Shown here: piece by piece, positions 2,024 to 59,694 of the stretch
How the letters are laid out: every line of letters starts with the position of its first letter
How positions within the stretch are numbered: position 1 is the first letter of the stretch
Assembly (NCBI GenBank): GCA_018241225.1
Contig: JAFEEG010000019.1
Span: forward strand, 62,001-126,000
Length of the DNA stretch: 64,000 nt
Reading direction: 5' to 3'
DNA from: Pseudomonadota bacterium
GTDB lineage: Bacteria; Pseudomonadota; Gammaproteobacteria; Burkholderiales; Burkholderiaceae_C
Made by a program: the position numbers and the translations under genes
The notes under the pieces: model-generated
Told to the model about the DNA's origin: nothing
What the model saw: the letters and a program-made list of their open reading frames with translations, nothing else
Database searches by the model: none

Positions 2024-4237
2024 TCAGGGCAGGAAGCTGAGCGTTTCAGGCAGCGGCGGAACGATCGGCATCTCGAACAGCTCGCCGGCACCGTCCGGAT
2101 CGATCACCAGCGCGCCGTCGCTGGCAAAGAACAGCGCGATCTGGGTCTGCGCCTGCACCGCCAGCAACGCGCTGAACTGGCTGCCGCCGATGTTGGTCAG
2201 GAAGGTGTGCGGATTCTTCGGGACCTGCCCGCCGCTGGCCGCAAACGCCAGGTCGTTGCGATAGAACATGGCGCGGTCCGCCAGCCCGCCCGCGCGCAGG
2301 ATGGCGGTGGCAGTCGGGTTGGGCACCGTCTGGTCGCCCTTGGCGAACTGCACGATCACCGGCTTGGGCGCGTTGCCCGGCAGCGGCTGCTTGCGGATGT
2401 AGGCCGCATAGCTCACTGGGTTGCCCGTCTGCTGCACCCAGGTGTTGTTCTCCAGGACCTGCTGGATGGCCACCGAGCCAGGCACGGTGTTGACCAGCGG
2501 CGCAAGGTTGCGCAGCGGAATGTTCTCGTTGAAGTTCACCGGAAAGGGCAGCGTTGCAGACGGCGGCAGGTTCAGCAGTTGCGGCTGCCGCGCGGCCAGC
2601 GCCAGGCCGGTGAGCGGGCGGAAGGCACCCAGCCGCGCCACCTCGGTGATGGAGCCGCCCGGCACGTTGGGCACCCCCGCGCGCACCGCGCCTTCCATGC
2701 CAAGGAAGATGGTGCCGTAGATGCCGCCGAAGGACTGGCCCGCGTAGTAGATGCGGCTGCGGTCGAAGTCGACCGAGCCGTCGCCATCCACGTCGATGCC
2801 GGCCTGGATCTGGCGCACCAGTTGCATCAGGTCCACCACCGTCTGGCGCAGGCCGTCGCGGCTGGAGACGATGGTCTGCGCGCCCACCGCACCCACGCCT
2901 TCGGTCGAGTCGATGGTGCCGTTGCCGTCCTGGTCGATGCCGCGTCCGCCCGAAGGCACCACGACCGCCGGCGCGCCGCCCTGCGGCGTGACCTTGAGCG
3001 TGCCCAGCGGCCCGCCGCCGTGGCCCACCACGCTGATCGCCACGGTGGCAATGCCGCGCGATGCCAGCACCGAGGCCACCGTCCACGGCGCGCCATACAT
3101 GCTGTCGGTAAAGCCGTGCCCGAAGATGGCCACCGGCCAGCCGCCCGCGGGCCGCGGCGTGCTGGGCAGGAACATTTCCACGACCAGGTCGTTGCTGCCT
3201 TGCTGCGCCGGTTGCCCCAGCAGGGTGCCGGTGGCCGGGATGACGCGCTGCGCGTTCATGTAGTCGGGCGAGCGGAAGGTGCCGAAGGCAATGCGGCTCA
3301 CGGCGCCCGGCACCACGCCCAGGGCCTGAACCGGCACTGCCGTGGGCGTGAACGCAGCCGTGCCGGTCTGGCGGTTCCACTCGATGCCGGCCACCTGCGC
3401 CAGCGGGAACACGGCGCGCACCGAGCCCGAATTGCCGATCACGAAATTGACCGGCCCGGGCGTGGAGCGGCGAATCTGCTCACGGATCTTGCGCAGGTCG
3501 GCCGAGATGCTCTGGGTGGTGAACACGCTGAGCGACACCACGTGGTTGCGCGGCGGCCGGATCCAGCGGTCGGCGTCCTGCAGCGAGCGGCGGTAGCCGG
3601 CCCAGTCACGACCGGGCGGCTCGTCCTTGGGGCCCGAGCCCTGGCGCAGGTAGGAGAAGCGGCCGCCCTCGATGGGGTCGCCGGTGGCATCGCGAATGCC
3701 GTCGGTCACCACCAGCACGTAGCGCGAGTGCTCTTGCAGCAGCTCGTCGGACTCGACCACCAGCACCTTGCCGGCCGGGTCCCAAGACACCTGGTTGATG
3801 CCCACCCTGTCGCCCGCGCCCCGGCCCGACAGCGTGTCGCCCAGGTTGAGCAGGTACACGGTGTCGCTGGTCACCGTGGCCGGGTCGATGTCGCCGGTGA
3901 ACGGGATGGTGATGCGCGGCTGCGTGTTGAAGCCGTCGAGCGTGTTGATGACGTCGATGTCCTGGCAGTCAGACACCTGCACTGCGCAGTCGGGCTTGGG
4001 CAGCTTGACCCGCTTGTAGGTGTTCTGCGTCCAGTCGGGCACCGTGAAGCGGTCACTCGGGAAGGGGCTGGTGGCCGGGCTGTCGAAATCCATCTTCACG
4101 CTTACGCCAGCCGCCAGCGAAAGCATGGGAACGCCGGCAAGGACAAGCGCTGCAAACGACGAGCGGCACCACGCGTGGCGCAGTCCTGGGTGCAAAGCGG
4201 GCTGCTGCAAACGCGCAATGGATCGAACTTGCATCAC
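2024..4237 (-). CDS. Secreted VolA/Pla-1-like lipase/esterase with two EF-hand-like loops
   Basis: Large (737 residues) predicted extracytoplasmic alpha/beta hydrolase resembling the extracellular lipase family of Vibrio VolA and Aeromonas Pla/LipA. A hydrophobic segment at about 27-43 ending LSLAAG is a likely export signal. Residues 50-300 form a beta-rich N-terminal region with Ig-like wording (ITIPFTGDIDP, DTVYLLNLGD). The hydrolase core has an oxyanion HGF motif at 374-376, nucleophile elbow GQSFGG with Ser502, an Asp in FAKGDQTVPNP and a His in KNPHTF. Two 12-residue calcium-loop patterns, DQDGNGTIDSTE (435-446) and DVDGDGSVDFDR (482-493), lie inside the core just ahead of the nucleophile. 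The gene stands alone, convergent with the M20 gene (12-base gap). Likely substrates are lipids or other esters; this is family inference. Confidence 0.83.
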   Translation of the reverse strand: MMQVRSIARLQQPALHPGLRHAWCRSSFAALVLAGVPMLSLAAGVSVKMDFDSPATSPFPSDRFTVPDWTQNTYKRVKLPKPDCAVQVSDCQDIDVINTLDGFNTQPRITIPFTGDIDPATVTSDTVYLLNLGDTLSGRGAGDRVGINQVSWDPAGKVLVVESDELLQEHSRYVLVVTDGIRDATGDPIEGGRFSYLRQGSGPKDEPPGRDWAGYRRSLQDADRWIRPPRNHVVSLSVFTTQSISADLRKIREQIRRSTPGPVNFVIGNSGSVRAVFPLAQVAGIEWNRQTGTAAFTPTAVPVQALGVVPGAVSRIAFGTFRSPDYMNAQRVIPATGTLLGQPAQQGSNDLVVEMFLPSTPRPAGGWPVAIFGHGFTDSMYGAPWTVASVLASRGIATVAISVVGHGGGPLGTLKVTPQGGAPAVVVPSGGRGIDQDGNGTIDSTEGVGAVGAQTIVSSRDGLRQTVVDLMQLVRQIQAGIDVDGDGSVDFDRSRIYYAGQSFGGIYGTIFLGMEGAVRAGVPNVPGGSITEVARLGAFRPLTGLALAARQPQLLNLPPSATLPFPVNFNENIPLRNLAPLVNTVPGSVAIQQVLENNTWVQQTGNPVSYAAYIRKQPLPGNAPKPVIVQFAKGDQTVPNPTATAILRAGGLADRAMFYRNDLAFAASGGQVPKNPHTFLTNIGGSQFSALLAVQAQTQIALFFASDGALVIDPDGAGELFEMPIVPPLPETLSFLP

Positions 4238-4434: not shown

Positions 4435-5376
4435 CTACTGCGCCTTCAAGGCCATCGTCTGGATGATCGATTCGAGCTGCGGGCTCATTGGCAGATTGAT
4501 GCTGCTGCCGGACGGAAGCTTGTCCAGGAACCAGCGGGTGTATTGCCGCTCGATCTCTGCGCTGGCCGCCATGGCCTGGAAGCTGTCTTTCACGACCTGG
4601 GCAAGAAGCGGGTCGTCCTTGCGGAACATCACGCCGTAGGGATCGTAGGAAAGGTAGTCGCCCAGCACTTCGAGCTCGGAGGTGGCGGAGTGCTGCGCGA
4701 TCAGCCCGCGCAGCAGCACGTCGTCGCTGGCAAATGCCTCGGCCTCGCCACGCACCACCAGCGCAAAGCCTTGCGCCTGCTCGTCTGCATCCACGATGCG
4801 GATGCCCAGCTTGAACTTCTCCGACAGGTCGCGCACCGCCTTCTCGTTGGTGGTGCCGCGCGTCACCGCCACGGTCTTGCCGGCCAGGTCGCGGAAGTCG
4901 CGGATGGGCGAGTCCTTTCTCACCAGCACCTTGGTCCCCGCCACGAAGATGATGGGCGAGAAGGCCACGCGCTTGCGGCGCTCCAGGTTGCTGGTGGTCG
5001 AGCCGCACTCCAGGTCAACCTGCCCATTGGCCACGGCGTCCACCCGGGTCTCGGCCGTGACGGGAACCCAGCGGATGTCGAGCGGGCGGTGCACCGCATC
5101 GCCGATGGCAGCCATCAGCAGCTTGCACAGCTCCACCGTGTAGCCGATGGGTTGCTTGCGCGTATCGAGGTAGGAAAACGGCACGGAAGATGCGCGGTAG
5201 CCCAGGGCGATGCTGCCCGAGGCACGCACCTTTGCCAGCGTGCCGCTCAACTCGGCAGAGACGGCAGGCGCCTGCGCCGAGGACTCCTGCGCCAGGCATG
5301 CGCCGCCCAGCGCTGCGGACAGCACAATGGCCGGGGCCGCAAGCCACCAGGCGCACATCAGTCGGCGGGCGGACAT
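4435..5376 (-). CDS. Periplasmic amino-acid-binding protein (GltI-like, ABC family 3)
   Basis: Polar amino-acid binding protein of the GltI (glutamate/aspartate) type, 313 residues. The N terminus MSARRLMCAWWL followed by a hydrophobic stretch and GGACLAQE gives a signal peptide, possibly a lipoprotein site at LGGAC. The mature part has the family phrases SIALGYRASSVPFSYLD, GYTVELCKLL, DLECGSTTSNLERRKRVAFS and VAVTRGTTNEKAVRD. The chosen ATG lies one base after the symporter's stop (TGA-C-ATG), a coupled arrangement; the open frame continues upstream but that part is a shadow of the symporter gene. It is the last gene of the eight-gene operon. No ABC permease or ATPase gene is nearby, so it may serve a distant transporter, feed the symporter indirectly, or act as a sensor. 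Glutamate-like ligand is inferred. Confidence 0.85.
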   Translation of the reverse strand: MSARRLMCAWWLAAPAIVLSAALGGACLAQESSAQAPAVSAELSGTLAKVRASGSIALGYRASSVPFSYLDTRKQPIGYTVELCKLLMAAIGDAVHRPLDIRWVPVTAETRVDAVANGQVDLECGSTTSNLERRKRVAFSPIIFVAGTKVLVRKDSPIRDFRDLAGKTVAVTRGTTNEKAVRDLSEKFKLGIRIVDADEQAQGFALVVRGEAEAFASDDVLLRGLIAQHSATSELEVLGDYLSYDPYGVMFRKDDPLLAQVVKDSFQAMAASAEIERQYTRWFLDKLPSGSSINLPMSPQLESIIQTMALKAQ

Positions 5377-5377
5377 G

Positions 5378-6685
5378 TCAGGAATGCCCCGGGTGCGCCA
5401 GTGAAGCCTGTGCCTCGGTGTCGAGGGCCAGCACGTTGGCCGCAGCCTCGTCTTCGGACAGCAGCTCACCCTCCCACTTGGCGACCACCGCCGTGGCAAT
5501 GGAGTTGCCCACCGCGTTGGTGGCCGAGCGGCCCATGTCCAGGAAGGTATCGACGCCCAGGATGAGCAGCAGGCCCGCTTCCGGAATGTCGAACTGGTTG
5601 AGCGTGGCGGCAATCACCACCAGCGAGGCGCGCGGTACGCCGGCCATGCCCTTGGAGGTGAGCATCAGGATCAGCAGCATGGTGACCTGCGTGCCCAGCG
5701 ACAGATGGATGTCGTAGGCCTGCGCGATGAACAGCACCGCGAAGGTGCAGTACATCATGGAGCCGTCCAGGTTGAACGAATACCCCATGGGCATCACGAA
5801 GCTGGAGATCTTGCGCTTGACGCCGAAGCGGTCGAGCGCGTCCAGGATCTTGGGGTAGGCCGCCTCGGAGCTGGCGGTGGCAAAGGACAGCATGAAGGCT
5901 TCCTTGATGAGCACCAGCAGCTTGAACACGCGCGGCCCCAGGAACAGCAGGCCGGCGAAGACCAGCGTGCCCCACAGCAGGAACAGGCTCAGGTAGAAGT
6001 CGCCCATGAACACCGCGAACTTGAGCAGGATCTCCAGCCCATTGACGGCTACCGTGGCGGCCATGGCGGCCATCACCGCCAGCGGCGCCAGCTTCATCAC
6101 GTAGCCGGTGATCTTGAGCATGACGTGCGACAGCTCGTCGATGGCGGCCACCAGCGTCTTGCCCTTTTCACCCAGCGCCGCGAGCGCCACGCCGAAGAAC
6201 ATCGAGAACACCACGATCTGCAGGATCTCGTTGTTGGCCATGGCCTCGGCAAAGGACTTGGGCACCAGGTGGCTGACGAAGTCCTTGAGCGTGAACTTGG
6301 AGGTGGCCAGGTTGGCCGAGCTGCCGATATCGGGCAGCGGCAGGCCCAGGTTGGTGCCCGGCTGCAGCAGGTTGGCCATGATCAGGCCCAGGATGAGCGA
6401 GACCAGCGAGGCAGTCACGAACCAGGCCAGGGCCTTGCCGAACACCCGCCCCACCGAGGCCGCGTCGCCCATGTGCGCAATGCCCACCACCAGCGTGGAG
6501 AACACCAGCGGGCCGATCAGCATCTTGATCAGGCGCAGGAACACGTCCGACATGATCGAGATGTACCCGGCGATCTGCACCGCGGCCTTCTTGTCGGGGA
6601 ATTCGACGAACACCGCGTAGCCCAGCGCAATGCCCACCACCATGGCGATCAAGATCCAGGCGGCTTGCGGAAGCTTTCTTTTCAT
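5378..6685 (-). CDS. Dicarboxylate/amino-acid:cation symporter (DAACS, DctA/GltP type)
   Basis: Inner-membrane secondary transporter of the DAACS family, which takes up C4-dicarboxylates or acidic amino acids with H+ or Na+. The 435 residues match DctA/GltP. Visible signatures are MGYSFNLDGSMMY, TSKGMAGVPRAS of the HP2 hairpin, and DTFLDMGRSATNAVGNSIAT with the substrate-binding Asp/Arg/Asn region of TM8, plus multiple hydrophobic helices. Start chosen at MKRKLPQ (6685), preceded by a strong purine block (CAGGGAGACAGAGAGAA); an ATG at 6715 would overlap the upstream C45 stop as ATGA but has no ribosome site. It lies between the C45 hydrolase and the binding protein. Context suggests import of an amino acid, dicarboxylate or conjugate handled by the operon. 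Confidence 0.92.
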   Translation of the reverse strand: MKRKLPQAAWILIAMVVGIALGYAVFVEFPDKKAAVQIAGYISIMSDVFLRLIKMLIGPLVFSTLVVGIAHMGDAASVGRVFGKALAWFVTASLVSLILGLIMANLLQPGTNLGLPLPDIGSSANLATSKFTLKDFVSHLVPKSFAEAMANNEILQIVVFSMFFGVALAALGEKGKTLVAAIDELSHVMLKITGYVMKLAPLAVMAAMAATVAVNGLEILLKFAVFMGDFYLSLFLLWGTLVFAGLLFLGPRVFKLLVLIKEAFMLSFATASSEAAYPKILDALDRFGVKRKISSFVMPMGYSFNLDGSMMYCTFAVLFIAQAYDIHLSLGTQVTMLLILMLTSKGMAGVPRASLVVIAATLNQFDIPEAGLLLILGVDTFLDMGRSATNAVGNSIATAVVAKWEGELLSEDEAAANVLALDTEAQASLAHPGHS

Positions 6686-6711
6686 TTCTCTCTGTCTCCC
6701 TGTGTTGAAAC

Positions 6712-7716
6712 TCATGCTGCAGCGACTACTGGCGCTGAGAAACCGATGTCGCGCTGACCCTCTTCGAAGGCGTCGAGCGTCTGCGTCCAGGACTGGCCCG
6801 GCCAATGCAGGCTCGCTTGCCTGGCATTGGGCGAATAGGCAGCCGTGTAGAGCGTTCCGTAGCCGCGCTGCCAGGCAGGCTGGTAAAGCGGCTCGGTCAG
6901 CAGCGCACCGATGACCGCCGGCGCGCTGGCGCCGGAATCGAGCTGCCGCTGCAAGATGTCGAGCCGCTCAGGCGAGCGCGTGGCACGAGCGTGCTCAGGC
7001 CACTCCACCTGGTGCTGGACATTCGTGACCGCCTTGCGGCGGGTAACTTCGACTGGCCGATCGGGGTTGAGGAACACGGTGGCCCACTGCGAATGGCGGT
7101 CCAGCAGCGTGACGCTGTAGCTCATGTGGACCGGAATGCGCTCCAGGATGGCCACGGCCGACGCCGTGCTGCTGGCCGTCTCGAGCACGTAGCGCAGCAC
7201 CAGCGGAATGCCGAAGCCGTCGCCCGACACCGTGCGCCCGCCAAACGACAGCGACGCCGCCAGGCCCGATTCGTTGATGCCGTCGAGTGCGCCCCACAGG
7301 CAGTCGCTCATGGCCATCACGCGCTGGCCTGCCCAGCGGGTGGACAGCCAGTTGCCTTCGAGCAGCGCGGGCGAGAAGTCGTAGTTGCGCAGCAGCATGG
7401 GCTCGTGCGCCAGGTCCGAATCGATCCAGACCGCCTGCGAGCAGCCCACGATGTAGGGCGGCGGACACCACAACGACAGGAAGCGCGCCTCCAGGTCGCC
7501 GCCCCCGGCCAGTTCGACCAGGCGTTCCCAGGTGGGAACGAGTTCTGGCATGTGCGTTCGCATGGCGCGCCGGCACTCCAGGAAGCTGGGCCGGGCCACC
7601 GCGCCACTGCGCAGGAACCATGCGCGATAGAAGGGCCACGCCGGATCGAACAGGGCCTTCCAGCGCGCATCGGGCCGGTCTTCCTCGATGGCCCGGAACT
7701 GAATGCTGGGCTGCAT
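6712..7716 (-). CDS. C45-family autoproteolytic acyltransferase/hydrolase (Ntn fold)
   Basis: Member of peptidase family C45 (isopenicillin acyl-CoA:6-APA acyltransferase relatives), N-terminal-nucleophile enzymes that cleave themselves and then hydrolyse or transfer acyl groups on amides. In the 334-residue product the junction IVG-CSQAVW gives a candidate cleavage before Cys92, and LRNYDFSP just after it is the family's R-N-x-D block. NESGLAASLSFGGR and GFGIPLVLRYVLE match the conserved core, and a later N (FLNPDRP) fits the oxyanion region. Start ATG at 7716 is 14 bases after the ATP-grasp stop. It sits in the operon between the ATP-grasp ligase and a symporter. It probably forms or breaks an amide made by its neighbours. 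Substrate unknown. Confidence 0.85.
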   Translation of the reverse strand: MQPSIQFRAIEEDRPDARWKALFDPAWPFYRAWFLRSGAVARPSFLECRRAMRTHMPELVPTWERLVELAGGGDLEARFLSLWCPPPYIVGCSQAVWIDSDLAHEPMLLRNYDFSPALLEGNWLSTRWAGQRVMAMSDCLWGALDGINESGLAASLSFGGRTVSGDGFGIPLVLRYVLETASSTASAVAILERIPVHMSYSVTLLDRHSQWATVFLNPDRPVEVTRRKAVTNVQHQVEWPEHARATRSPERLDILQRQLDSGASAPAVIGALLTEPLYQPAWQRGYGTLYTAAYSPNARQASLHWPGQSWTQTLDAFEEGQRDIGFSAPVVAAA

Positions 7717-7730
7717 GGGCTCGAGCGGCT

Positions 7731-9188
7731 TCAGAGAATCTTGAAGGACCCCGGCGCCGGCGCCGCCTCGTTCTGCGTGGCCATGATGGGCTTGCCGCCG
7801 TAGTAGTTCTTGATGCCCCCGATCCAGTCGCGCGCACGGATGTTGAGCTTGAAGTTGTCGTCCATCGAGCGGCCGCGCGTGATGAGGATACCCAGGTCGG
7901 CGCCTTCGTAGCGGTAGTCGCCAGGCCCGGTGATGCGCAGGAAGAAGGCCTCGCGCTCGCTGTCGATGGCGCGGCGCTCGTAGTCGAAGCGCTGGTAGGC
8001 CACGCTGCCGTCCTCGGCCATGCGGTAGATGCCGGTGGCCGGCGCGTGGGTGACCTGGTCGACCCGGTCTTCGGTGAACTTGAGCACCACCTGCGACCAC
8101 GAGTCGATAAAGTGCGGCTGCGCCCAGCGGTCGTTGATCTCGCGCACATTCAGGTCGAAGGGCACGCCGGAGAACTCGAGCAGGTGGAACAGGAACAGCG
8201 GCGCGTCGGCATAGGCAAAGGCCGCGTGGTTGGTCATGGGGCTGGCGCCGCAGATGCGCGGGTTGAGCTCGCCCAGGTAGACCTCGTTGTTGTCGGTGTC
8301 GATCAGGAAGTCGAGGTCGAAGTAGCCGCGATAGCCCTCGGCCAGCAGCTGATTGCCGAAGCGCTCGGCCATGTCGCGCGCCTTCAGGCGGACTTCTTCG
8401 GAGAAGGCGCCGGGGAAGACCTCGTTGCCGCTCCAACCGCCCTTGTAGGGCGTGAGCTCCTTGGCGCCCACCACTTCGGTGAGCAGCGGGCCGACCAGCG
8501 TGCCCGACTGCGTGGCGCACGCCTCGAGCGTGGCGCCGCGGCAGTTGATGCGCTTCATGATCTTCACTTCGGGGTCGTTGACGATCTCGTTCTTGTGCTT
8601 GTTGAAGTCGTCTTCGCTGGCGATGAAGAAGGTGGTGTGGCCCGAATCGCCGAAGGCCGACTGCACCACCAGGTCGCGGCCCAGCCCGGCGCGCTCGGCG
8701 ATCTGCATCAGGTGCTCGTAGCTGTCGACCTTTTCCAGCGCGTTGGGCACCGAGAACACGCCGGCCTTGTTGCCGATGCGCACCGTTTCCATCTTGTTGT
8801 CGCAACGCGTGCGCAGCGTGGCGGGCGGAAACCACACCTCCATGCCCAGCTCGCGGGCCAGCTCCTCCGTCTTCTCGTCGAACATGAGGAAGGTGGCCAC
8901 CGGCTTGCCGCCGCGCCGCTCGATCAGGTCGATGACTTCCTTGTGCTGCAGCAGGTAGTTGTTGATGTCCTCGATGGACTCGAACTCTGCATGCGGCGAC
9001 TCGGAGGGCACGAACACGTTGGGGTGCCGCCCGTCGAAGCAGTCGATGTAGTTGATGTATCGAAAGCGGTTGACCCAGCGGTCCATGCCGAGCAGGTTGA
9101 AGTTGGTGGCGCTGATGAAATAGATGGGCCGCTCGTTGCGATGGAACATCAGCTTCAAGTCGGCAATGCTCTGGACCTTGGTGGTCAT
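7731..9188 (-). CDS. ATP-grasp domain ligase ('biotin carboxylase-like')
   Basis: ATP-grasp enzyme of 485 residues. Such proteins activate a carboxylate as acyl-phosphate and join it to an amine or thiol. Visible are an N-terminal preATP-grasp part (YFISATNFNLLGMDRW), the nucleotide-lid region VVQSAFGDSGHTTFF, a central KRINCRGATLEA segment and the metal-binding strand FDLDFLIDTDNNEVYLGELNPRICGAS with the acidic and Asn ligands. Homologs are often labelled biotin carboxylase, but there is no carboxyltransferase or biotinyl carrier here, so an amino-acid or amine ligase is more likely. The ATG overlaps the decarboxylase stop (ATGA) and has a clear CAGGGAGAGAAGA ribosome site. Operon partner of the decarboxylase and C45 enzyme. 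Substrates not deducible. Confidence 0.84.
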   Translation of the reverse strand: MTTKVQSIADLKLMFHRNERPIYFISATNFNLLGMDRWVNRFRYINYIDCFDGRHPNVFVPSESPHAEFESIEDINNYLLQHKEVIDLIERRGGKPVATFLMFDEKTEELARELGMEVWFPPATLRTRCDNKMETVRIGNKAGVFSVPNALEKVDSYEHLMQIAERAGLGRDLVVQSAFGDSGHTTFFIASEDDFNKHKNEIVNDPEVKIMKRINCRGATLEACATQSGTLVGPLLTEVVGAKELTPYKGGWSGNEVFPGAFSEEVRLKARDMAERFGNQLLAEGYRGYFDLDFLIDTDNNEVYLGELNPRICGASPMTNHAAFAYADAPLFLFHLLEFSGVPFDLNVREINDRWAQPHFIDSWSQVVLKFTEDRVDQVTHAPATGIYRMAEDGSVAYQRFDYERRAIDSEREAFFLRITGPGDYRYEGADLGILITRGRSMDDNFKLNIRARDWIGGIKNYYGGKPIMATQNEAAPAPGSFKIL

Positions 9189-12067
9189 TCTTCTCTCCCT
9201 GTAGTTGTGTTGGCCGGCGCCGTCCTGGCTTTTCGGCTGGCCGGCTTTGTCTCGTTGTCGTTCGCCTGCGGCTGTGCAACCCGACCCGACAGCGCCACCG
9301 CGGCGCGCGCGGCGGTGGCCTGCGCGGCGCGGGCCAGCGCTTCGGCGTTGAAGATGCGAAAGCCCAGCTCGGGCCTGAAGCCATGGATCTCGCGCACGTC
9401 GAGTGCGGCCATGAACTGCAGGATCTCGGCGCTGATCACCTGGCCGGGCACCAGGATCGGAAAGCCCGGCGGATACGGAATGACGAACAGCGCCGACACC
9501 AGCTCGCGCCCACCCTGGATGGCGCGGGCGGCCTCGGCCATGTCGATGTACTCGCAGTTGGTGTCGTCGTAGGACAGGAAGAAGGCGCTGCGGATGTCTC
9601 CGTCGCGCGTGGCGCCGCGGCCTTCGACGCTGCGCCCGCGGAACGCGAAGTGGAAGCTGGAGAAGTCGGGCAGCGGCGGCTGCTCGAGCGTGAGCGAGCG
9701 CACCCGCTTTTCGTGGATGCGGCGCTCGATGGCGCTCATGTCGGCCACCCGATGGTCGACGTCCCGCGCGATCTTCACCAGCACCTCGATCAGGTAGGCC
9801 ACCGCCGAGCGCGTGCTACCGATGTTGGTCATGAACAGCACGGTGTTGCGCGAGGTCTTGTTGATCTGGATGCCGTAGCGATCCATCAGCTCCTTGTTCT
9901 TGAAGGTGTCGCCGTCCATGCCGGCCGCGCCGATGGACAGCGTGGCACGGGTGGGGTCGAGCGCGAACTCGTCGGTGCGCCAGGCGGCCTCGAGGTTGTT
10001 CCAGCCGGTTTCGTCGTCGTAGTAGGACTGCACGCCCGATTCGCGGTACTCGGGCGGAACCACATCCTTCACGGTCAGGAAGCGGAAGTAGCGCCGCAGC
10101 AGCGGATGGGTGCGCACCTGCTCGCGCAGGCTCATGGCCAGCTCGAGCTGGCGCTGGATGAGCTCGTAGCCTTCCAGTTCCACCTGCCGGCGACCCACGT
10201 CGAGCGAGGCCAGGATCTGGTAGTTGGGCGAAGTGGAGGTGTGGGTCATGTAGGCCTCGTGGAAGGCCTCTTCGGCCTTGTCCTTGAAGTCCTGGTCCCA
10301 CACATGGATCATCGAGCCCTGCCGCAGGGCCGTGAGGGTCTTGTGCGTGGAGTGCGTGGCATACACACGGATGCGGGCCTTGGCCGGGTCGGGCAGCAGT
10401 CGGTTGCCCAGCACCTGCTCCTCGTTGTCCCAGTCGATGCCCTTGCTGAACTCGGCGTGACGCGCTGCATAGGCCGGGTCTTGCAGCATCTCGTGCAGCT
10501 TGGCGGCGCTGGCCATGCCGGTGCGCTGCCGGTAGATGGGATGGCAGCGCGCAAAGGCGAACCAGGCCTCGTCCCAGAGGAACACCAGGTCGGGCTTGAT
10601 GGCCAGGCATTCCATCATCACGCGCTCGACGTCGTAGACGATGCCGTCGAAGGTGCAGTTGGTGAGCAGCACCATGCGCACCCGGTCGAGCGTGCCGGCA
10701 CGCTTGTAGTCCAGCAGCGTCTTCTTGATGTGGCGGATGGGCACCGCGCCATACATCGAGTACTGGTCGAGCGGGTAGCTGTCGAGGTAGGCCACCTGCG
10801 CGCCGGCCAGCACCAGGCCGTAGTGGTGCGATTTGTGGCAGTTGCGGTCGACCAGCACGATGTCGTCGGGCCGCACCAGCGCCTGCACCACGATCTTGTT
10901 GCAGGTGGAGGTGCCGTTGGTGGCGAAGTAGGTGCGCCGCGCACCGAAGGCGCGTGCCGCATATTCCTGGGCGAGCTTGAGCGGGCCCACCGGGTCGAGC
11001 AGGGAATCGAGCCCGCCCGAAGTGGCCGAGGTTTCGGCCATGAACAGGTTCATGCCGTAGAACTGCGCCAGGTCGCCGATCCAGTTGGAGTTCATGATCG
11101 ACTTGCCGCGCGCCAGCGGCAGCGCATGGAACACGCCGGTGGGTTGCTTGGCGTAGTCGCGCAGCGCGTGGAAGAAAGGCGTGCGGTGGCGCTCGCCCAC
11201 GCCCTTCATGATGGCGCTGTACAGCTCGATGTGGTCTTCCTCGCCGAAGAAGATGCGCTTGAACACCTCGCCCACCTGCGCCGCAATGGATTCGACGTTG
11301 ACGTCGGTCACCAGGTACAGGTCGAGCTCGGGCCGCAGCTGCGCGATCTGCCGGCCCAGCAGCGGGCCACGCTCGAACTCGGCCATTTTTTCCACGCCCT
11401 CGTCCATGCCGTCGAGGAAGCGGCGCAGCAGGTCGTTGTGGTTGACCGAGCGGAACGGAAAGCCGTGGCGGATGACCACCGCCTGCAGGTTGAAGTTGAC
11501 CAGCGTGGCGATCAGCGCGTCTTCGAAGCTGGGCACCACCACCACGTCGAAGATGAAGTCGTCGTCGCTGGTGCGCTTGCGCTGCACGCGGCGGCGCAGC
11601 GCATCTTCCTCGGCGGGCGACATCTCGTCGACGATGAGCACCTCGAAGTAGGGGCGCGCCAGCTGCGCCGCGCGTTCGCTCTCGGTCTCGATCTGCGAGG
11701 GCAGTTCGTTGTCGCTGTCGAGCGCGCTGACGTCGTGGCGATAGGTGCGCGCGGCCAGCACCCGGTGGATGCGGCGCGCGGCCTGGTGGGCGCGCGCGAT
11801 TTCGTCGCGCTCGATCCAGTTCACCAGTTCGCCGAACACCCGCCCACCCGGAAAGGCCCAGTAGCTCTCGACCGGCGCCAGCTCTCCGACGATCTTGCGC
11901 ACATGCGCCAGATGGCGTGCGCGGTCTGGATGGTCGGGTGCCAGCACGGTGAGCCGGCTGAGGTCGTCGACCAGGCTGATCCAGCCGTCGGCGCGCATTT
12001 CCCACACGCTGCGGTGGCGGCTCAGCGACGCGCTGCCGCGTTTTTCCGAAGCACTTGTTGGCTTCAT
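9185..12067 (-). CDS. Large Orn/Lys/Arg decarboxylase-family PLP enzyme
   Basis: Fold-type I PLP enzyme of the bacterial ornithine/lysine/arginine decarboxylase family, expected to turn a basic or related amino acid into its amine and CO2. At 960 residues it is clearly longer than AdiA or LdcC (~710-760). The N-terminal third carries a receiver-like wing (IVDEMSPAEEDALRRR, VVVVPSFEDALIA). The catalytic core shows FATNGTSTCNKIV, RNCHKSHHYGL, the cofactor Asp in FLWDEAWFAFARCHPIY (Asp about 499) and the Schiff-base lysine in ATHSTHKTLTALRQGSMIH (Lys about 576). Start chosen at MKPTSAS (12067) because CAGGGAGACGAAA precedes it; ATG at 12085 lacks a site. Its stop overlaps the ATP-grasp start. 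Substrate could be ornithine, arginine, lysine or an unusual amino acid. It ends 79 bases from the amidase gene. Confidence 0.9.
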   Translation of the reverse strand: MKPTSASEKRGSASLSRHRSVWEMRADGWISLVDDLSRLTVLAPDHPDRARHLAHVRKIVGELAPVESYWAFPGGRVFGELVNWIERDEIARAHQAARRIHRVLAARTYRHDVSALDSDNELPSQIETESERAAQLARPYFEVLIVDEMSPAEEDALRRRVQRKRTSDDDFIFDVVVVPSFEDALIATLVNFNLQAVVIRHGFPFRSVNHNDLLRRFLDGMDEGVEKMAEFERGPLLGRQIAQLRPELDLYLVTDVNVESIAAQVGEVFKRIFFGEEDHIELYSAIMKGVGERHRTPFFHALRDYAKQPTGVFHALPLARGKSIMNSNWIGDLAQFYGMNLFMAETSATSGGLDSLLDPVGPLKLAQEYAARAFGARRTYFATNGTSTCNKIVVQALVRPDDIVLVDRNCHKSHHYGLVLAGAQVAYLDSYPLDQYSMYGAVPIRHIKKTLLDYKRAGTLDRVRMVLLTNCTFDGIVYDVERVMMECLAIKPDLVFLWDEAWFAFARCHPIYRQRTGMASAAKLHEMLQDPAYAARHAEFSKGIDWDNEEQVLGNRLLPDPAKARIRVYATHSTHKTLTALRQGSMIHVWDQDFKDKAEEAFHEAYMTHTSTSPNYQILASLDVGRRQVELEGYELIQRQLELAMSLREQVRTHPLLRRYFRFLTVKDVVPPEYRESGVQSYYDDETGWNNLEAAWRTDEFALDPTRATLSIGAAGMDGDTFKNKELMDRYGIQINKTSRNTVLFMTNIGSTRSAVAYLIEVLVKIARDVDHRVADMSAIERRIHEKRVRSLTLEQPPLPDFSSFHFAFRGRSVEGRGATRDGDIRSAFFLSYDDTNCEYIDMAEAARAIQGGRELVSALFVIPYPPGFPILVPGQVISAEILQFMAALDVREIHGFRPELGFRIFNAEALARAAQATAARAAVALSGRVAQPQANDNETKPASRKARTAPANTTTGREE

Positions 12068-12146
12068 TTTCGTCTCCCTGTTCAAGCCGTCGCCCTTGTT
12101 CGGCGCGGCCTTGTTCTCTTCAAGCTTGTCAGATGTTCGTGCGTGC

Positions 12147-13043
12147 TCAGTCGGGCTTTACCAGTGGCCCGAGGCTGTTCAGGTACGGATAACGGTCAGA
12201 TGTCTCACGGTCATAAATGTCAAACGTGCATTCACGATCTCGGAAGCTCTTGAGCGGCTGGCCCAGGTTGCTGCGCAAGCCACGTTCGCGCTCCCTGCGC
12301 AGGCGCGCAAAGTCGACGTCGATGGTGATGATCTCGTTGCCGCCATCGGCCTGGTGCAGCACATAGCCCGAGGGGTCGCACACAAGGGAGCGCCCCACGC
12401 CGCCATCGCCCACGCCATTGATGTCGAAGAAGTAGACCTGGTTGGTGGCGGCCGAGGCGCGCGCAATGGACAGCTCGACATCGCGGTCGATGGTGTCGGT
12501 CATGGTCGGGTGAAGAATCACCTCGGCGCCCATCGCTGCCAGTGTGCGGGTGGTTTCCGGAAACCACATGTCATAGCAGATGGAAACGCCGAAGCGCCCG
12601 GCGCCTGGTACGTCGAACACGCAGAACTCGCTGCCGCCCGCCACGTCGCGCTCGTACGGACGGAAGGGAAAGAGCTTTCGAAAGCGCGCGACGACTTCGC
12701 CCGTTGGATTGATCACCGGCGTGGTGTTGTAGACCACCGGTCCGGCCAGGCCCTCGGCATGCTCGAACATCGAGCCGGGAATGAGCCACAGCCCGGTTTC
12801 GCGCGCCAATTCGCACAGCCTCGCCTCGGTGGGGCCGGGCAAGGGCTCGGCCTTGTCGTGCTTGGGACCCAGGGGGGCAAGTTCGGAGAACAGCACCATG
12901 CGGACCCACGGAAAGCGCTGGCGGATGTGGCGCAGGTAGTTGCCCATGCGCTCGACGTTGCTCTCGTAGGCCGACACGTTCATCTGCACGCCGGCCACGC
13001 CAAAGGTGCTGCTGGCGTCGCCAGCCGTATAGGCACCGCTCAT
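12147..13043 (-). CDS. Carbon-nitrogen hydrolase (nitrilase superfamily amidase)
   Basis: Cytoplasmic amidase or carbamoylase of the nitrilase superfamily, 298 residues, within the family's usual length. The catalytic triad is visible: Glu54 in FSELAPLGP, Lys123 in RFRKLFPF and Cys156 in GVSICYDMWFPE. The start ATG at 13043 overlaps the aldehyde dehydrogenase stop (ATGA), and longer upstream frame is only a shadow. The superfamily includes N-carbamoylputrescine amidase, omega-amidase and aliphatic amidases. Position inside an operon with a decarboxylase, a ligase and GABA degradation genes suggests release of an amine or GABA from an amide or carbamoyl intermediate. I cannot assign the branch with certainty. 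It is followed by a 79-base gap before the decarboxylase, with no promoter that I can defend. Confidence 0.9.
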   Translation of the reverse strand: MSGAYTAGDASSTFGVAGVQMNVSAYESNVERMGNYLRHIRQRFPWVRMVLFSELAPLGPKHDKAEPLPGPTEARLCELARETGLWLIPGSMFEHAEGLAGPVVYNTTPVINPTGEVVARFRKLFPFRPYERDVAGGSEFCVFDVPGAGRFGVSICYDMWFPETTRTLAAMGAEVILHPTMTDTIDRDVELSIARASAATNQVYFFDINGVGDGGVGRSLVCDPSGYVLHQADGGNEIITIDVDFARLRRERERGLRSNLGQPLKSFRDRECTFDIYDRETSDRYPYLNSLGPLVKPD

Positions 13044-14503
13044 TGATCCAACCCCGCCAGGCAGATGTACTTGATTTCGAGGAACTCCTCGAGCCCGTAG
13101 CGCGAGCCTTCGCGCCCCAGGCCCGATTGCTTCACCCCGCCAAAAGGTGCCTCGGCGGTGGAGATGAGGCCGGTGTTCACGCCCACCATGCCGGTTTCGA
13201 GCCGTTCGGCCACGCGCATGATCCGGCCGATGTCGCGGCTGTAGAAGTACGCGGCCAGGCCGAATTCGGTGTCGTTGGCCAAAGCAATGACCTCGTCTTC
13301 GGTGTGGAAGGAGAAGACGGGCGCCAGCGGTCCGAAGGTTTCTTCGCGCGCCACCAGCATGTCGCGCGTGGCGCCGCCGATGACGGTGGGCTGGTAGAAC
13401 TGGCCGCCCAGCGCGTGGCGCTTGCCGCCAGTGAGCACCTTGCCGCCCTTGGCCACGGCGTCGGCCACGTGCTCTTCGATCTTGGCCACGGCCTTGTCGT
13501 CGATCAATGGCCCCTGGGTCACGCCCGGCTCCATGCCGTTGCCGACCTTGAGCGCTTCCACGCGCGCCACCAGCTTCTGGGTGAACGCATCGAGCACGCC
13601 CGACTGGACATAGATGCGATTGGCGCATACACAGGTCTGACCGGTGTTGCGGTACTTGGAGACCATGGCGCCTTCGACGGCTGCATCGAGATCCGCGTCG
13701 TCGAACACGATGAAGGGCGCGTTGCCGCCCAGCTCCAGCGAGAGCTTCTTGACCGTGTCGGCCGACTGCCGCATGAGCATGCGGCCGACCTCGGTCGAGC
13801 CGGTGAAGGTGAGCTTGCGCACCACCGGGCTGGCCGTCATTTCGCCACCGATCTGCGAAGCCGAGCCGGTGAGTACCGAGAGGAGGCCCTTGGGCAGCCC
13901 CGCGCGTTCGGCCAGCAGCGCGAAGGCCAGCGCGGAATACGGCGTCTGCAGCGCGGGCTTGACCACCATCGAGCAGCCCGCCGCCAGCGCCGGCCCCGCC
14001 TTGCGGGTGAGCATGGCAATGGGGAAGTTCCACGGCGTGATGGCCGCCGTGACGCCGATGGGCTGCTTGATCGCCAGGATTCGGCGGTCTGCGGCGGGCG
14101 CGGGAATGGTGTCGCCATACACACGGCGCGCCTCGTCGGCAAACCACTCGATGAAGGAGGCGGCGTACACGACCTCGCCCCGCGCTTCAGCCAGCGGCTT
14201 GCCCTGCTCGGTGGTCATGATGGCGGCCAGGTCTTCCTGGTTGGCCAGCATGAGTTCGTTGAGCTTGCGCAGGATGGCGGTGCGCTCCTTGGCGGGGCGT
14301 CGCGCCCACTCGCGCTGCGCCTCTTCGGCCGCAGCAATGGCACGCTTGGTTTCTTGGGCAGCGCACATGGGCACGGTGCCGATCTGCTCGCCGGTGGCGG
14401 GGTTGCGCACGACGGCGGTGGCACCGCCGTCCGCATCCGCCGACTCGCCGGCTACATAGGCCTGCTGGCACAGCAGCGAGGGATCTTTCAGGGTCAAGGA
14501 CAT
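13040..14503 (-). CDS. gabD: Succinate-semialdehyde dehydrogenase, GabD type
   Basis: NAD(P)-dependent aldehyde dehydrogenase of 487 residues, oxidising succinate semialdehyde to succinate, the last step of GABA catabolism. ITPWNFPIAML, FTGSTEVGR (Rossmann nucleotide site), ELGGNAPFIVFDDAD with general base Glu257 and NTGQTCVCANR with nucleophile Cys291 and the nearby redox-regulatory Cys293 all match GabD. Both ends fit E. coli GabD without gaps. It starts 16 bases after gabT and its stop overlaps the amidase start. A broader omega-semialdehyde substrate such as glutarate semialdehyde is possible if the operon's decarboxylase uses lysine. The gabT-gabD adjacency makes the GABA route the simplest reading. 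Confidence 0.92.
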   Translation of the reverse strand: MSLTLKDPSLLCQQAYVAGESADADGGATAVVRNPATGEQIGTVPMCAAQETKRAIAAAEEAQREWARRPAKERTAILRKLNELMLANQEDLAAIMTTEQGKPLAEARGEVVYAASFIEWFADEARRVYGDTIPAPAADRRILAIKQPIGVTAAITPWNFPIAMLTRKAGPALAAGCSMVVKPALQTPYSALAFALLAERAGLPKGLLSVLTGSASQIGGEMTASPVVRKLTFTGSTEVGRMLMRQSADTVKKLSLELGGNAPFIVFDDADLDAAVEGAMVSKYRNTGQTCVCANRIYVQSGVLDAFTQKLVARVEALKVGNGMEPGVTQGPLIDDKAVAKIEEHVADAVAKGGKVLTGGKRHALGGQFYQPTVIGGATRDMLVAREETFGPLAPVFSFHTEDEVIALANDTEFGLAAYFYSRDIGRIMRVAERLETGMVGVNTGLISTAEAPFGGVKQSGLGREGSRYGLEEFLEIKYICLAGLDQ

Positions 14504-14519
14504 GGCCGGGCGCCTCTTC

Positions 14520-15818
14520 TCAACCCTGCATGGCCGACAGCAGGATGTCGATGCCTTCGTCGAGCACCGAATCCTCGATGGTCAGCGGAAACAGGAAGCG
14601 CACCACGTTGCCATAGACGCCGCAGGTCAGCAGCAGCAGGCCCGCGTCGCGCGCACGGGTCTGCACCAGGCGGGTGAAGTCGGCATCCGGCTTGCCCTTG
14701 GCGTCGGTGAACTCGACGGCGACCATGGCGCCGAGGCCGCGCACCTCGGCAATCTGCGGGATCTTGGCCTGCAGCAGACGCTGCTTGAGGCGCTGCCCGA
14801 GGCGCTCGGCGCGTGCGGGAAGCTGCTCGTCTTCCATGACGTCGAGCACCGCATGTGCCGCCGCGATGGCCAGCGGATTGGCCGCATAGGTGCCGCCCAG
14901 CCCGCCGGGCATGGGCGCGTCCATGAGCTCGGCGCGGCCCACCACGCCCGACAGCGGAAGGCCGCCGGCCAGGCTCTTGGCGATGGTCATGAGGTCGGGC
15001 ACCACGTCGTAGTGGTCCATGGCAAACAGGCTGCCGGTGCGGCCGAAGCCGGTCTGGATCTCGTCGGCGATCAGCAGGATGCCGTGGCGGTCGCACACCT
15101 CGCGGATGGCGCGCATGAACTCGGGCGGCTGGACGTAGAAGCCGCCCTCGCCCTGAACGGGTTCGAGGATGATGGCCGCCACCTGTTCGGGGTCGATGTC
15201 GGCCTTGAAGACGCGCTCGAGTGCCGCGAGGGAGTCTTCCACCGACTGGCCGTGCAGCGCCACGGGCGCCGGCACGTGGAAGATGCTGCCCGGGAAGGGG
15301 CCGAACCCGGTCTTGTAGGGCGCCACCTTGCCCGTGAGCGCCATGCCCATGTAGGTGCGGCCATGGAAGCCGCCGGTGAGCGCGATCACGCCCGGGCGGC
15401 GCGTGGCATTGCGCGCGATCTTGATGGCGTTTTCCACCGCTTCGGCACCGGTGGTGAAGAAGGCCGTCTTCTTGGCGTGCACGCCTGGTGTGAGCGCGTT
15501 GATGCGCTCGGCCAGCGAGATGGCGCTTTCGTACGGCACCACCTGGTAGGCGGTGTGCGTGAAGCGTTCGAGTTGCTCGCGCACGGCCTGCACGACGCGA
15601 GGGTGCCGATGCCCGGTGTTGAGCACCGCGATGCCCGAGCCGAAGTCGATGAAGCGACGGCCCTCGACGTCCCACAGTTCGGCGTTTTCCGCGCGCTCGG
15701 CATAGAAGGGAAAGCCGATGGCCACGCCACGCGGCGTGGCGGCGATGCGGCGGCTGTCTAGCGATTGATTGGACTTGGTAGCGGTGGCTGCGGGACGTGC
15801 GGCAAGGGTTGAAGTCAT
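14520..15818 (-). CDS. gabT: 4-aminobutyrate-2-oxoglutarate transaminase
   Basis: Class III PLP aminotransferase moving the amino group of GABA to 2-oxoglutarate and producing succinate semialdehyde. Family marks are [56 protein letters not shown], the cofactor Asp252 in [13 protein letters not shown] and Schiff-base Lys281 in [11 protein letters not shown]. The chosen ATG at 15818 gives 432 residues, close to E. coli GabT (426). An ATG at 15860 (14 residues longer) has TGAGGCG ahead of it but falls in the divergent promoter zone, so it is less likely. First gene of the eight-gene operon and divergent from the MocR regulator, which commonly controls gabTD. 5-aminovalerate or another omega-amino acid is an alternative substrate. 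Confidence 0.92.
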
Positions 15819-15879
15819 GGTGTGTGAGCGGCGCCTTGGCACGCGCTCGGAACTGGACATCGCCTCAGTCTATGGATAG

Positions 15880-15903
15880 ATTGATCCCACACAAAGATCC
15901 AAT
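15880..15903. promoter_or_regulatory. Inverted repeat in the gabT/MocR divergent promoter
   Basis: ATTGATC (15880-15886) and GATCCAAT (15896-15903) form an imperfect inverted repeat around a nine-base spacer, inside the 98-base gap between gabT and the regulator gene. On the minus strand TTGGAT and TATCCA could serve as -35 and -10 with an 18-base spacer, placing the repeat over the gabT promoter. A MocR binding site is inferred from position only. Confidence 0.4.
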
Positions 15904-15916
15904 TCATGCAGATTTA

Positions 15917-17404
15917 ATGGGACCAATTTCGAAGACACACAAGGACACGGTCCTGCCCGATTTCGTACAACGTCATTTCCAGCGCGACGATGCTGAACAC
16001 AATCATCGGCAGATCTATCGAATCCTGCGCGAGGGCATCCGGCAGTCGGCCTACCCTGCCGGATCGCGTCTGCCGCCCAGCCGCGACATGGCATCGGCGC
16101 TGGGTGTGGCGCGCAACACCATCGTGCAGGTCTACGAGCAGCTGGCGCTCGAAGGCCTGGTGCATGCGGGCGTGGGGCGCGGAACCTATGTCAGCGCGCT
16201 GGCGCCTTCCTGTTCCGGCAGGCGCGGCGATGGACGGCCGCGGCAAGGCGCGCCGCTGTCCGGCAGGGGCCGCGACATCGTCAAGGGCGCGCGGGCCAGC
16301 CCGCTGCAATGGGGCGCCTTCACACCCGGCGTGCCCGAGGTGCGGATGTTCCCCGCGGCCATCTGGAGCCGGCTGCATTCGCAAGCCTGGCGCGATGTCG
16401 ATGCGACGCAGCTGAGCTATGCCACCGGTGCCGGCCACCCCGAGCTGCGCGAGGCCATTGCCGAGCACCTGCAGCACACGCGCGGCGTGGCCTGCTCGGC
16501 CGAGCAGGTGGTGGTGACCAGCGGCACGCAGCAGGCATTGCACCTGGTGTCGCACCTGCTCGCGGACCACGGCGACACGGTGTGGCTCGAAGACCCGGGC
16601 TACTGGGGCGCGCGCAGCGTGTTCCGTGCCGCGGGGCTGAACCTGCAGCCGGTATCGCTCGATTCGGAAGGGCTGGCGCCCACCGCATCGCAACGCGCAG
16701 CGCCGCCCCGGGTGATGTTCCTGTCGCCATCGCACCAATACCCCACAGGCGTGCTGATGAGCCATGGGCGCCGGCGCCAGCTGCTCGACTACGCCGCGGC
16801 GAACCGGGTGTGGATCGTCGAGGACGACTACGACAGCGAGTTCCGCTTTGCATCACGCCCCCTGCCCGCCCTGCAAGGCGCGGACGAACACGGCCGCGTG
16901 GTGTACCTGGGCACTTTTTCCAAGACGCTGTTTCCGTCGCTGCGCATCGCCTATCTCGTGCTGCCGCCAGAGCTGGTCGACAGCTTTTCCAGCGCGCTGG
17001 GCGAGCTGTTCCGCGAAGGCCAGACGATGCAGCAGGTGGTGCTGGCGCAGTTCCTGAGGCAGGGCCACTACGCGCGGCACATCCGCAAGATGCGGCTGGT
17101 CTACGGTGCGCGCCGGGCCGCGCTCATCGAGGAGATCGGCCGGCGCTTCGGCGTGGCCCTGCCGGTGTTTGGCGGCGAAGCCGGGCTGCACCTGGTGCTG
17201 GGCCTGCCGGCGAATGTCGACGACGAGGAGGTTGCACGCCAGGCGCTCGCGGCCGGCGTCATGACGCGGCCGCTATCGCTGTACTCGCTCAGGAAGCCGG
17301 CGCCCTGGCGCGGGCTGGTGCTGGGCTACGGCGCGGTGGCCGAGCACGAGATCCGCGCGAGCTTCGACAAGCTCGCGGGCGTGATCCAGCCGCACCTGGG
17401 CTGA
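15917..17404 (+). CDS. MocR/GabR-family transcription regulator (GntR HTH + aminotransferase domain)
   Basis: Regulator of 495 residues with a GntR winged helix at about 33-95 (RLPPSRDMASALGVARNTI, GRGTYVSAL), a linker rich in Gly/Arg/Pro at 95-130, and a class I aminotransferase domain to the end. The PLP lysine is kept: GTFSKTLFPS with Lys336, together with SHQYPTGV and VEDDYDSEFR. Such proteins sense PLP-amine adducts, as GabR does with GABA, and usually control the divergent operon. Start ATG at 15917 (MGPISK) was chosen; ATG at 15872 would run into the proposed operator. It is the only regulator beside the eight-gene operon, so it probably activates it in response to GABA or a related amine. 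Confidence 0.91.
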   Translation: MGPISKTHKDTVLPDFVQRHFQRDDAEHNHRQIYRILREGIRQSAYPAGSRLPPSRDMASALGVARNTIVQVYEQLALEGLVHAGVGRGTYVSALAPSCSGRRGDGRPRQGAPLSGRGRDIVKGARASPLQWGAFTPGVPEVRMFPAAIWSRLHSQAWRDVDATQLSYATGAGHPELREAIAEHLQHTRGVACSAEQVVVTSGTQQALHLVSHLLADHGDTVWLEDPGYWGARSVFRAAGLNLQPVSLDSEGLAPTASQRAAPPRVMFLSPSHQYPTGVLMSHGRRRQLLDYAAANRVWIVEDDYDSEFRFASRPLPALQGADEHGRVVYLGTFSKTLFPSLRIAYLVLPPELVDSFSSALGELFREGQTMQQVVLAQFLRQGHYARHIRKMRLVYGARRAALIEEIGRRFGVALPVFGGEAGLHLVLGLPANVDDEEVARQALAAGVMTRPLSLYSLRKPAPWRGLVLGYGAVAEHEIRASFDKLAGVIQPHLG

Positions 17405-17421
17405 CCCGCACGCGAAGCAGT

Positions 17422-18152
<731 letters not shown>

Positions 18153-29179: not shown

Positions 29180-29217
29180 TTGCGTGAGACTCGATGTTCT
29201 AGGGATGGATGTGTGGA

Positions 29218-30741: not shown

Positions 30742-30755
30742 GCGATGGCGCCTTG

Positions 30756-58781: not shown

Positions 58782-58807
58782 GGGATTACCTCGCGGGAAA
58801 GTTGGAA

Positions 58808-58854
58808 TCAGTCAAAACTGACACGATTCTATCAAATTCCTTGCTATTTCCTAA
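58808..58854 (-). promoter_or_regulatory. fba promoter with overlapping palindrome
   Basis: On the minus strand TTAGGA (58854-58849) and TAGAAT (58831-58826) make a -35/-10 pair with a 17-base spacer, about 45 bases from the fba ATG. Just past the -10 lies TCAGTCAAAACTGA (58808-58821), an inverted repeat of TCAGT that covers the start site and could bind a repressor. The remaining 58855-59019 is AT-rich with no recognised gene. Confidence 0.6.
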
Positions 58855-59019
58855 CGATTGTCCTACCGGTGACCCTGCGTACAGATTTTGCCTTGTGCGC
58901 CGCGCATTCAATTGATCCCAAATAAATTGACTGCCATACTGATTATGGGCACATCAATTCCGGATGCGCTCTTTGTTTTAATAAATAAATTCAATCCAAT
59001 TACAATTCAGGGAGAATTG

Positions 59020-59637: not shown

Positions 59638-59649
59638 GCTTCACCGGCA

Positions 59650-59685
59650 GGGCCCGCCATCCTGTCGAAAGGACGGCGTGGGCCC
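59650..59685. terminator. Bidirectional hairpin between the beta-barrel gene and pyk
   Basis: GGGCCC at 59650-59655 pairs with GGGCCC at 59680-59685, continuing GCC/GGC and TCCT/AGGA around a GTCGAA loop with one mismatch and a two-base bulge. It sits exactly in the 57-base convergent gap between the two stops. No T-tract on either side. Confidence 0.6.
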
Positions 59686-59694
59686 CAGGCGCCT

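Follow-up and report, generated by a model that had tools for sequence, protein, structure and literature searches.

In the gamma-glutamyl-putrescine (Puu) pathway an amide is formed on an amine at the expense of ATP, and oxidation, hydrolysis of the amide and steps of the GabT/GabD type follow. A putative operon of eight genes (positions 4435-15860, Table 1) in the 64,000-nucleotide stretch of contig JAFEEG010000019.1 analysed here (the window) resembles it in joining predicted formation and hydrolysis of an amide to GabT/GabD-type steps, and PuuR-like regulators accompany the same genes at some loci of other genomes. However, its ligase is an ATP-grasp protein while the Puu ligase has a glutamine-synthetase fold, its hydrolases are a C45 protein and a nitrilase, a decarboxylase is included, and the eight operon proteins contain neither a PuuA-type glutamine-synthetase ligase nor a flavin adenine dinucleotide oxidase. 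The DavBA lysine route also places a nitrilase-family amidase beside GabT/GabD-like enzymes; it differs in its monooxygenase, which is absent from the eight proteins, and in lacking the ligase and the C45 protein. The principle of amine masking is already known from Puu. An earlier annotation made from the letters of the DNA (the sequence-only reading) knew of no description of the gene set, and a search of the open-access literature, preprints excluded, brought up none of this set or of its placement within different routes; the accessible part of PMC9007349 mentions no ATP-grasp protein.

The conserved unit is smaller than the eight genes and consists of the nitrilase, the decarboxylase, the ATP-grasp ligase and the C45 protein. 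Relatives were collected through the ligase at 139 loci, kin by descent and counted without dereplication, L003 and L148 for example lying on contigs of equal length (80 named loci, chosen as the best of 125 confirmed; 9 plasmid loci; 50 loci from further genomes), and neighbours were counted with tblastn. The C45 gene is present at 134 of them and lies at most 400 bp downstream of the ligase gene on the same strand at 126. Where the flanks are complete (102 loci, each with 6.5 kb or more upstream and 4.5 kb or more downstream of the ligase), C45 is found at 100, the nitrilase at 92 and the decarboxylase at 89. The genes converting gamma-aminobutyrate (GABA) to succinate are not constant partners, since gabD lies near the ligase at only 40 of these loci and gabT at 32, the latter an undercount as DoeD-type transaminases were tallied separately. 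They are an optional partner of the core module, one of several. The named loci span Proteobacteria, Phycisphaerales and other Planctomycetota, Myxococcales, Bacteroidota, Trueperaceae and Eisenbacteria.

Presence and absence were compared across 151 genomes of one family, that of G086, called Halomonadaceae-like here from its ectoine genes (thresholds E 1e-60 for the ligase, 1e-20 for C45 and 1e-100 for the decarboxylase). Forty genomes have the ligase. Each of them also has C45, and 39 have the decarboxylase; the exception, G435, carries a distant ligase (47% identical). The ligase-less genomes yielded neither C45 nor the decarboxylase at E 1e-20 and 1e-100, respectively. In five C45 matches of this family one stop codon falls inside the alignment, and a further, distant C45 is present in one genome. 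Because of this co-occurrence in other genomes the gene set is more than a chance neighbourhood, and the recurrence of decarboxylase, ATP-grasp and C45 genes together, which the sequence-only reading had proposed to look for, is found both in this family and across the 139 loci.

The distribution of the module is patchy. A full-length ligase match occurs in 11 of 398 genomes of a phylum sample, 8 of them passing the family cut-off (weaker matches to other ATP-grasp proteins were disregarded), in 36 of 198 genomes of the family of G083, in 6 of 250 of the window's own family, the window genome included, and in 0 of 2 other sampled genomes of its genus. The window ligase is 57-61% identical to planctomycete, myxobacterial or Eisenbacteria copies, and the module has likely spread horizontally. 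A more distant ligase branch (42-49% identical; L130-L132, L143, L147, L169-L172) has other neighbours: a GabT-like protein with a PuuR-like regulator and a three-part tripartite ATP-independent periplasmic (TRAP) transporter, or a peptide-type ATP-binding cassette (ABC) transporter, these names being given partly by eye. Two module copies of different gene order, one beginning and the other ending with the decarboxylase, were observed under a single Accumulibacter metagenome-assembled genome (MAG) name (L016 and L035), and similarly paired, differently ordered copies in one organism at L017/L053 and L018/L055.

The decarboxylase is missing from the neighbourhood of the ligase at 13 of the 102 full-flank loci. 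Twelve genomes or plasmid records were searched whole (the plasmid only for L111 and L122; the L027 locus is cut by a contig end) and 11 have no full-length decarboxylase homologue: five lack any match at E 1e-20, and in the other six the matches are partial and of canonical type. The twelfth, the Accumulibacter genome of L035 (G978), encodes two. The existence of such loci and genomes indicates that the ligase, C45 and nitrilase can work without the decarboxylase. The sequence-only reading had supposed that the amine released by the decarboxylase is masked by the ATP-grasp enzyme and unmasked by one of the amidases. The logic of masking by ligase and amidase remains plausible; since ligase and amidases also occur without a decarboxylase, the masked amine could have another origin, and the altered motif of the enzyme points the same way.

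This decarboxylase is homologous over nearly its full length to Rv2531c of Mycobacterium tuberculosis (residues 23-928 match 9n0n/9n0o, E 4.5e-258). It has the hallmarks of fold-I ornithine/lysine/arginine (OKR) decarboxylases: the OKR major domain (PF01276) and the STHK motif of the lysine that binds pyridoxal 5'-phosphate (PLP), found in 108 of 112 homologous open reading frames (ORFs; each above 200 bits, some of them fragments). However, the VEKTG motif of the arginine and lysine decarboxylases Adi and Ldc reads INKTS followed by Arg. NKT[ST] is present in 111 of the 112 ORFs and the following Arg in 110, the exceptions being a broken ORF in L055 and L116 with Pro in place of Arg. The conserved Glu is thus replaced by Asn in the window protein, in these 111 ORFs and also in Rv2531c, which differs in carrying Ile where the window family has Arg. 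As a control, a canonical OKR paralogue elsewhere in the window's genome keeps VEKTGLYS. We take the Glu of VEKTG (Glu526) to be the contact to the distal cation of the substrate. No relevant literature was located on the role of this residue; in the part of PMC4832331 available, acidic residues are described as lining the substrate channel of LdcI/AdiA. With Glu replaced by Asn plus Arg, the NKTSR motif speaks against ornithine, lysine or arginine in free form as the substrate, whose distal end may be predicted to be neutral or acidic. The activity of Rv2531c appears unsettled from the accessible part of PMC12910592, and a heading in PMC4569260 presents its gene, adi, as not crucial for growth on arginine. 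For SMa0680/SMa0682 of S. meliloti, considered as a possible link and set aside, the parts of the literature that were accessible only name arginine, lysine or ornithine decarboxylases or a link to putrescine, and these proteins were not matched to the present family. Two Aquitalea genomes encode a decarboxylase relative of 652-678 residues (42% identical over its middle part) whose motif pattern and neighbours are uninformative.

The ATP-grasp protein scores above NF005096, a family labelled biotin carboxylase, and has no Pfam match at E 0.001. It has the ATP-grasp fold of biotin carboxylases; however, no biotinyl carrier domain is encoded among the eight operon proteins, to which the search was confined, a biotin-dependent carboxylase was rejected on this ground, and the label is probably wrong. 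PylC forms an amide on a diamino acid. It and other carboxylate-amine ATP-grasp ligases are 12% identical to the window protein, and biotin carboxylases and PurK score equally. Fold comparison was therefore set aside as an arbiter between ligase and N-carboxylase, its rows being tied and families beyond the compared list being possible as well.

Both amidases retain their probable catalytic residues. The C45 protein belongs to its family with 164.8 bits against a cut-off of 85 (NF040521), and Cys92, presumably the nucleophile, is invariant in 30 of 30 aligned sequences; a sequence search returned no meaningful solved relative. C45 relatives cleave aminoadipyl or beta-alanyl amides, and C45 enzymes can also transfer acyl groups. 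In the nitrilase, a member of the PF00795 superfamily, E54, K123 and C156, which we assume to be the catalytic residues, are invariant in 23 of 23 aligned sequences. An agmatine/carbamoylputrescine route was considered and discarded: no deiminase is present among the eight proteins, and the nitrilase reaches 69 bits where AguB membership requires 410.

The contexts of the module concern amino compounds (ectoine, an arginine route, PuuR-like regulators, polyamine-type genes). In the window and its nearest relatives it is accompanied by gabT, gabD, a MocR gene, a DAACS symporter and a binding protein, and L150 seems to have a polar amino acid ABC transporter, identified by eye, in their stead. 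The GABA-to-succinate enzymes of the window both score above their cut-offs (TIGR00700 for the transaminase, TIGR01780 for the succinate-semialdehyde dehydrogenase, SSADH), and the sequence-only reading had taken GABA breakdown as the defining partner. This does not hold in the Halomonadaceae-like family, where the partner is ectoine breakdown. There, the ectoine degradation operon (doeA, doeB, an Lrp-type regulator, doeC, doeD) has the ligase inserted between doeA and doeD in all 39 module-bearing genomes with both genes on one contig. The doeA-doeD gap has a median of 10.1 kb (9.9-17.3) in these 39 genomes and of 4.2 kb in 70 module-less ones. As only 38 of the 70 gaps are below 4.5 kb (14 are at 4.5-7 kb and 18 at 7-13 kb), other genes sit between doeA and doeD in some module-less genomes. 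The comparison took 111 of the 133 genomes with doeA and 109 of the 117 with doeD (among 151); the eight doeD genomes left out are all module-less and have doeD more than 100 kb from doeA or on another contig. Since operons without the module are common, the module is an addition to the ectoine operon. DoeA, DoeB and an EhuR-type MocR regulator all score above their cut-offs at L127.

Other copies of the ligase and C45 genes lie in arginine-to-GABA clusters of Shinella, a record labelled Roseateles (organism unverified), a Rhizobiaceae MAG, Thiothrix and Thiofilum. These hold a racemase, a D-amino-acid dehydrogenase, AruI, an aldehyde dehydrogenase, a ureohydrolase and a nitrilase, and no decarboxylase; the Thiothrix proteins are above the cut-offs of the AruI and agmatinase families. 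PuuR-like regulators, scoring below the family cut-off, are found near the ligase at 9 of the 102 full-flank loci. One Cupriavidus locus carries an acetylpolyamine-amidohydrolase-like protein (nearest 3men, E 3.1e-69; no NCBIfam match) and a PuuC-like dehydrogenase below its cut-off. In another observation by eye, arginine succinyltransferase- and succinylarginine dihydrolase-like proteins stand alongside the Cupriavidus copy L028 (about 15600-18100, minus strand). Several of these neighbours were named by eye, with no profile, and the picking of neighbour ORFs missed some genes where antisense ORFs were chosen.

On Rhizobium and Sinorhizobium plasmids the decarboxylase and the ligase, sometimes with C45, are located near ABC transporters or nif genes (L112, L114, L116 and the plasmid matches H24-H32, one of them near nif genes). 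In Sinorhizobium, eight plasmid matches are broken into 2-3 pieces that span less than half of the ligase, and L112 yielded no C45, a picture suggestive of module decay on those plasmids. Universal stress proteins beside transporters are annotated at some loci and were recognised by eye at others.

The transport genes point to acidic amino acids. The DAACS symporter is closest among solved proteins to an aspartate transporter (E 1.8e-77) and retains the LDMGR...N stretch of GltPh, whose residues we take to be ligand contacts; it probably carries an acidic amino acid. The binding protein matches 2ia4/2vha (E 3.8e-58), presumably a Glu/Asp-binding protein. TAXI-type TRAP binding proteins, which bind acidic amino acids, lie near 19 of the 102 loci (family confirmed for one); a small protein, by eye of universal-stress type, often accompanies them.

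From these data the core may be a catabolic module that forms and then cleaves an amide, a tentative interpretation to which we give somewhat less than an even chance. The genes, their families and conserved residues, the co-occurrence, the contexts and the motif change are observed, whereas we infer every substrate, the sequence of reactions and what each amidase does. At the cost of ATP, the ATP-grasp enzyme would couple a small amino compound (a diamine, diamino acid or omega-amino acid) with a carboxylic acid, of which an acidic amino acid such as glutamate is the likeliest, and one amine would thereby be kept in amide form. The decarboxylase, where present, would accept amino acids with a neutral or acidic distal end, either acylated diamino acids or acidic amino acids, and not a free cationic one. 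The free end might be oxidised by a partner transaminase and aldehyde dehydrogenase (GabT/GabD, DoeD/DoeC or PuuC-like), after which C45, perhaps with the nitrilase, would hydrolyse the amide and recover the acid. An ordinary metabolite would leave, in the window GABA and then succinate. A more general pathway for masked diamines would be a bolder extension and seems doubtful: the ligase would acylate the distal amine of a diamino acid in the manner of PylC, a fold-I decarboxylase adapted to this acylated amino acid would then remove CO2, partner enzymes would oxidise the newly formed amine and C45 would free the acid, with interchangeable front ends for ornithine, ectoine-derived diaminobutyrate and others. 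If true, amine masking would seem to have been invented a second time, unrelated to the first, and Rv2531c-type decarboxylases would gain a candidate activity. In either case a strongly conserved module for which no assigned reaction was found is joined to ectoine, arginine and GABA routes, and solving it would correct the annotation of many genomes and give a lead for the Rv2531c-type decarboxylases.

Several observations weigh against an amide-forming and amide-cleaving module. The fold comparison does not separate ligases from carboxylases, the biotin carboxylase, PurK and PylC rows being tied for the ATP-grasp model. The clusters of the arginine route in Thiothrix, Thiofilum and Shinella and at L033 arrive at GABA with no masked amine and yet carry the ligase and C45, so that masking leaves them unexplained. 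Two Acinetobacter loci (L010 and L011) are four-gene units without adjacent oxidising enzymes, although gabT- and gabD-like genes do occur at L008. Masking would require a single amidase and the module has two, of which the nitrilase was not found at 10 of the 102 full-flank loci. Glutamate as the acid is a guess from the transporters and from C45 chemistry. Finally, the occurrence of DAACS, GltI-like or TAXI proteins near 32 of 89 decarboxylase-bearing loci and near none of 13 without decarboxylase speaks for the amide module, but the numbers are small, from loci kin by descent and uncorrected for relatedness.

This last tally would also fit a glutamate-to-succinate route in the window, with glutamate imported by the symporter and the binding protein, converted to GABA by a new glutamate decarboxylase and finished by GabT and GabD, while the ligase, C45 and nitrilase act separately on GABA or a glutamyl compound. 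The change of the motif Glu to Asn plus Arg and the GabT and GabD scores agree with such a route, which we nevertheless consider unlikely as it leaves the most conserved genes without a role and the Halomonadaceae-like module sits in an ectoine operon. To our knowledge no glutamate decarboxylase of OKR fold has been described, a further point against it. The unsettled activity of Rv2531c (PMC12910592, as far as accessible) also fails to help.

Proposals that change the direction or the chemistry of the module meet other difficulties. It might be biosynthetic, the nitrilase supplying ammonia as in NAD synthetase, the ATP-grasp enzyme making an amino-acid amide or dipeptide and C45 serving as an acyltransferase, with an osmolyte or storage compound as a product fed or recycled by neighbouring genes. 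In favour are neighbouring ectoine genes and universal stress proteins beside transporters (partly by eye), the ability of C45 enzymes to transfer acyl groups and the two decarboxylases of G978. However, the recurrent partners are degradative (doeA, doeB, gabT, gabD, aruI) and mostly co-directional, and no recurrent exporter was seen among the listed neighbour families, many of which lack annotation, making biosynthesis quite improbable. The module could also be a conventional Puu or agmatine variant in which an ordinary ornithine or arginine decarboxylase is followed by an ATP-grasp enzyme that replaces PuuA in glutamylating putrescine and by C45 replacing PuuD, close to what the sequence-only reading had proposed. 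The PuuR-like regulators at 9 of 102 loci and the PuuC-like and acetylpolyamine-amidohydrolase-like proteins of the Cupriavidus locus favour this variant. It accounts poorly for a decarboxylase motif altered in 111 of 112 ORFs, for the 13 of 102 full-flank loci with no decarboxylase near the ligase and for the canonical VEKTG paralogue elsewhere in the genome, and is in our view a rather remote prospect.

The organisation of the window operon corresponds to the sequence-only description of eight co-directional genes with a divergent MocR gene, as supported by the coordinates and by the Pfam and NCBIfam families (Table 1). Each of the eight ORFs is uninterrupted, from an ATG start to a stop codon at the end listed; gabT may alternatively start at 15818. 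The junctions, which include all those first described, are a 16-base gap between gabT and gabD, a 4-base ATGA overlap between gabD and the amidase, a 79-base gap before the decarboxylase, a 4-base overlap of the latter with the ATP-grasp gene, and gaps of 14, 26 and 1 bases before C45, DAACS and the binding protein. Since promoter-like sites (1 vs 1.2 in shuffles) and terminator-like sites (7 vs 6.8) in the operon scan do not exceed the shuffle level, co-transcription of the eight genes is predicted from their spacing only. The MocR regulator exceeds the PdxR cut-off and does not reach those of GabR and rhizopine MocR.

Table 1. Genes of the window operon and the divergent regulator gene
Feature	Position	Strand	Assignment and role
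gabT, GABA:2-oxoglutarate transaminase	14520..15860	-	Class III aminotransferase, TIGR00700 above cut-off; accessory partner
gabD, succinate-semialdehyde dehydrogenase	13040..14503	-	TIGR01780 (SSADH) above cut-off; accessory partner
Nitrilase-family amidase (CN_hydrolase)	12147..13043	-	Pfam PF00795; core gene
PLP decarboxylase, OKR fold, long N-terminal part, Rv2531c type, 960 aa	9185..12067	-	PF01276 (OKR_DC_1); core gene in most loci
ATP-grasp ligase (predicted)	7731..9188	-	Above NF005096 ("biotin carboxylase"); core gene
C45 N-terminal nucleophile (Ntn)-type amide hydrolase/acyltransferase	6712..7716	-	NF040521 above cut-off; core gene
DAACS symporter (SDF)	5378..6685	-	Nearest solved relative an aspartate transporter
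GltI-like periplasmic binding protein (family-3)	4435..5376	-	Nearest solved relative 2ia4/2vha
MocR-type regulator, divergent	15872..17404 (ATG at 15872)	+	GntR and aminotransferase domains

Elsewhere in the window, two ORFs of 737 and 590 residues (2024-4237 and 29209-30981) have no Pfam match at E 1e-8; the shorter may be no gene, as a longer ORF lies antisense to it. The guanine-cytosine content dips locally at 58800-59700 (0.598 in the 58-60 kb bin), between aldolase and pyruvate kinase genes, and a short open frame can be recognised by eye within this stretch at about 59020-59637.

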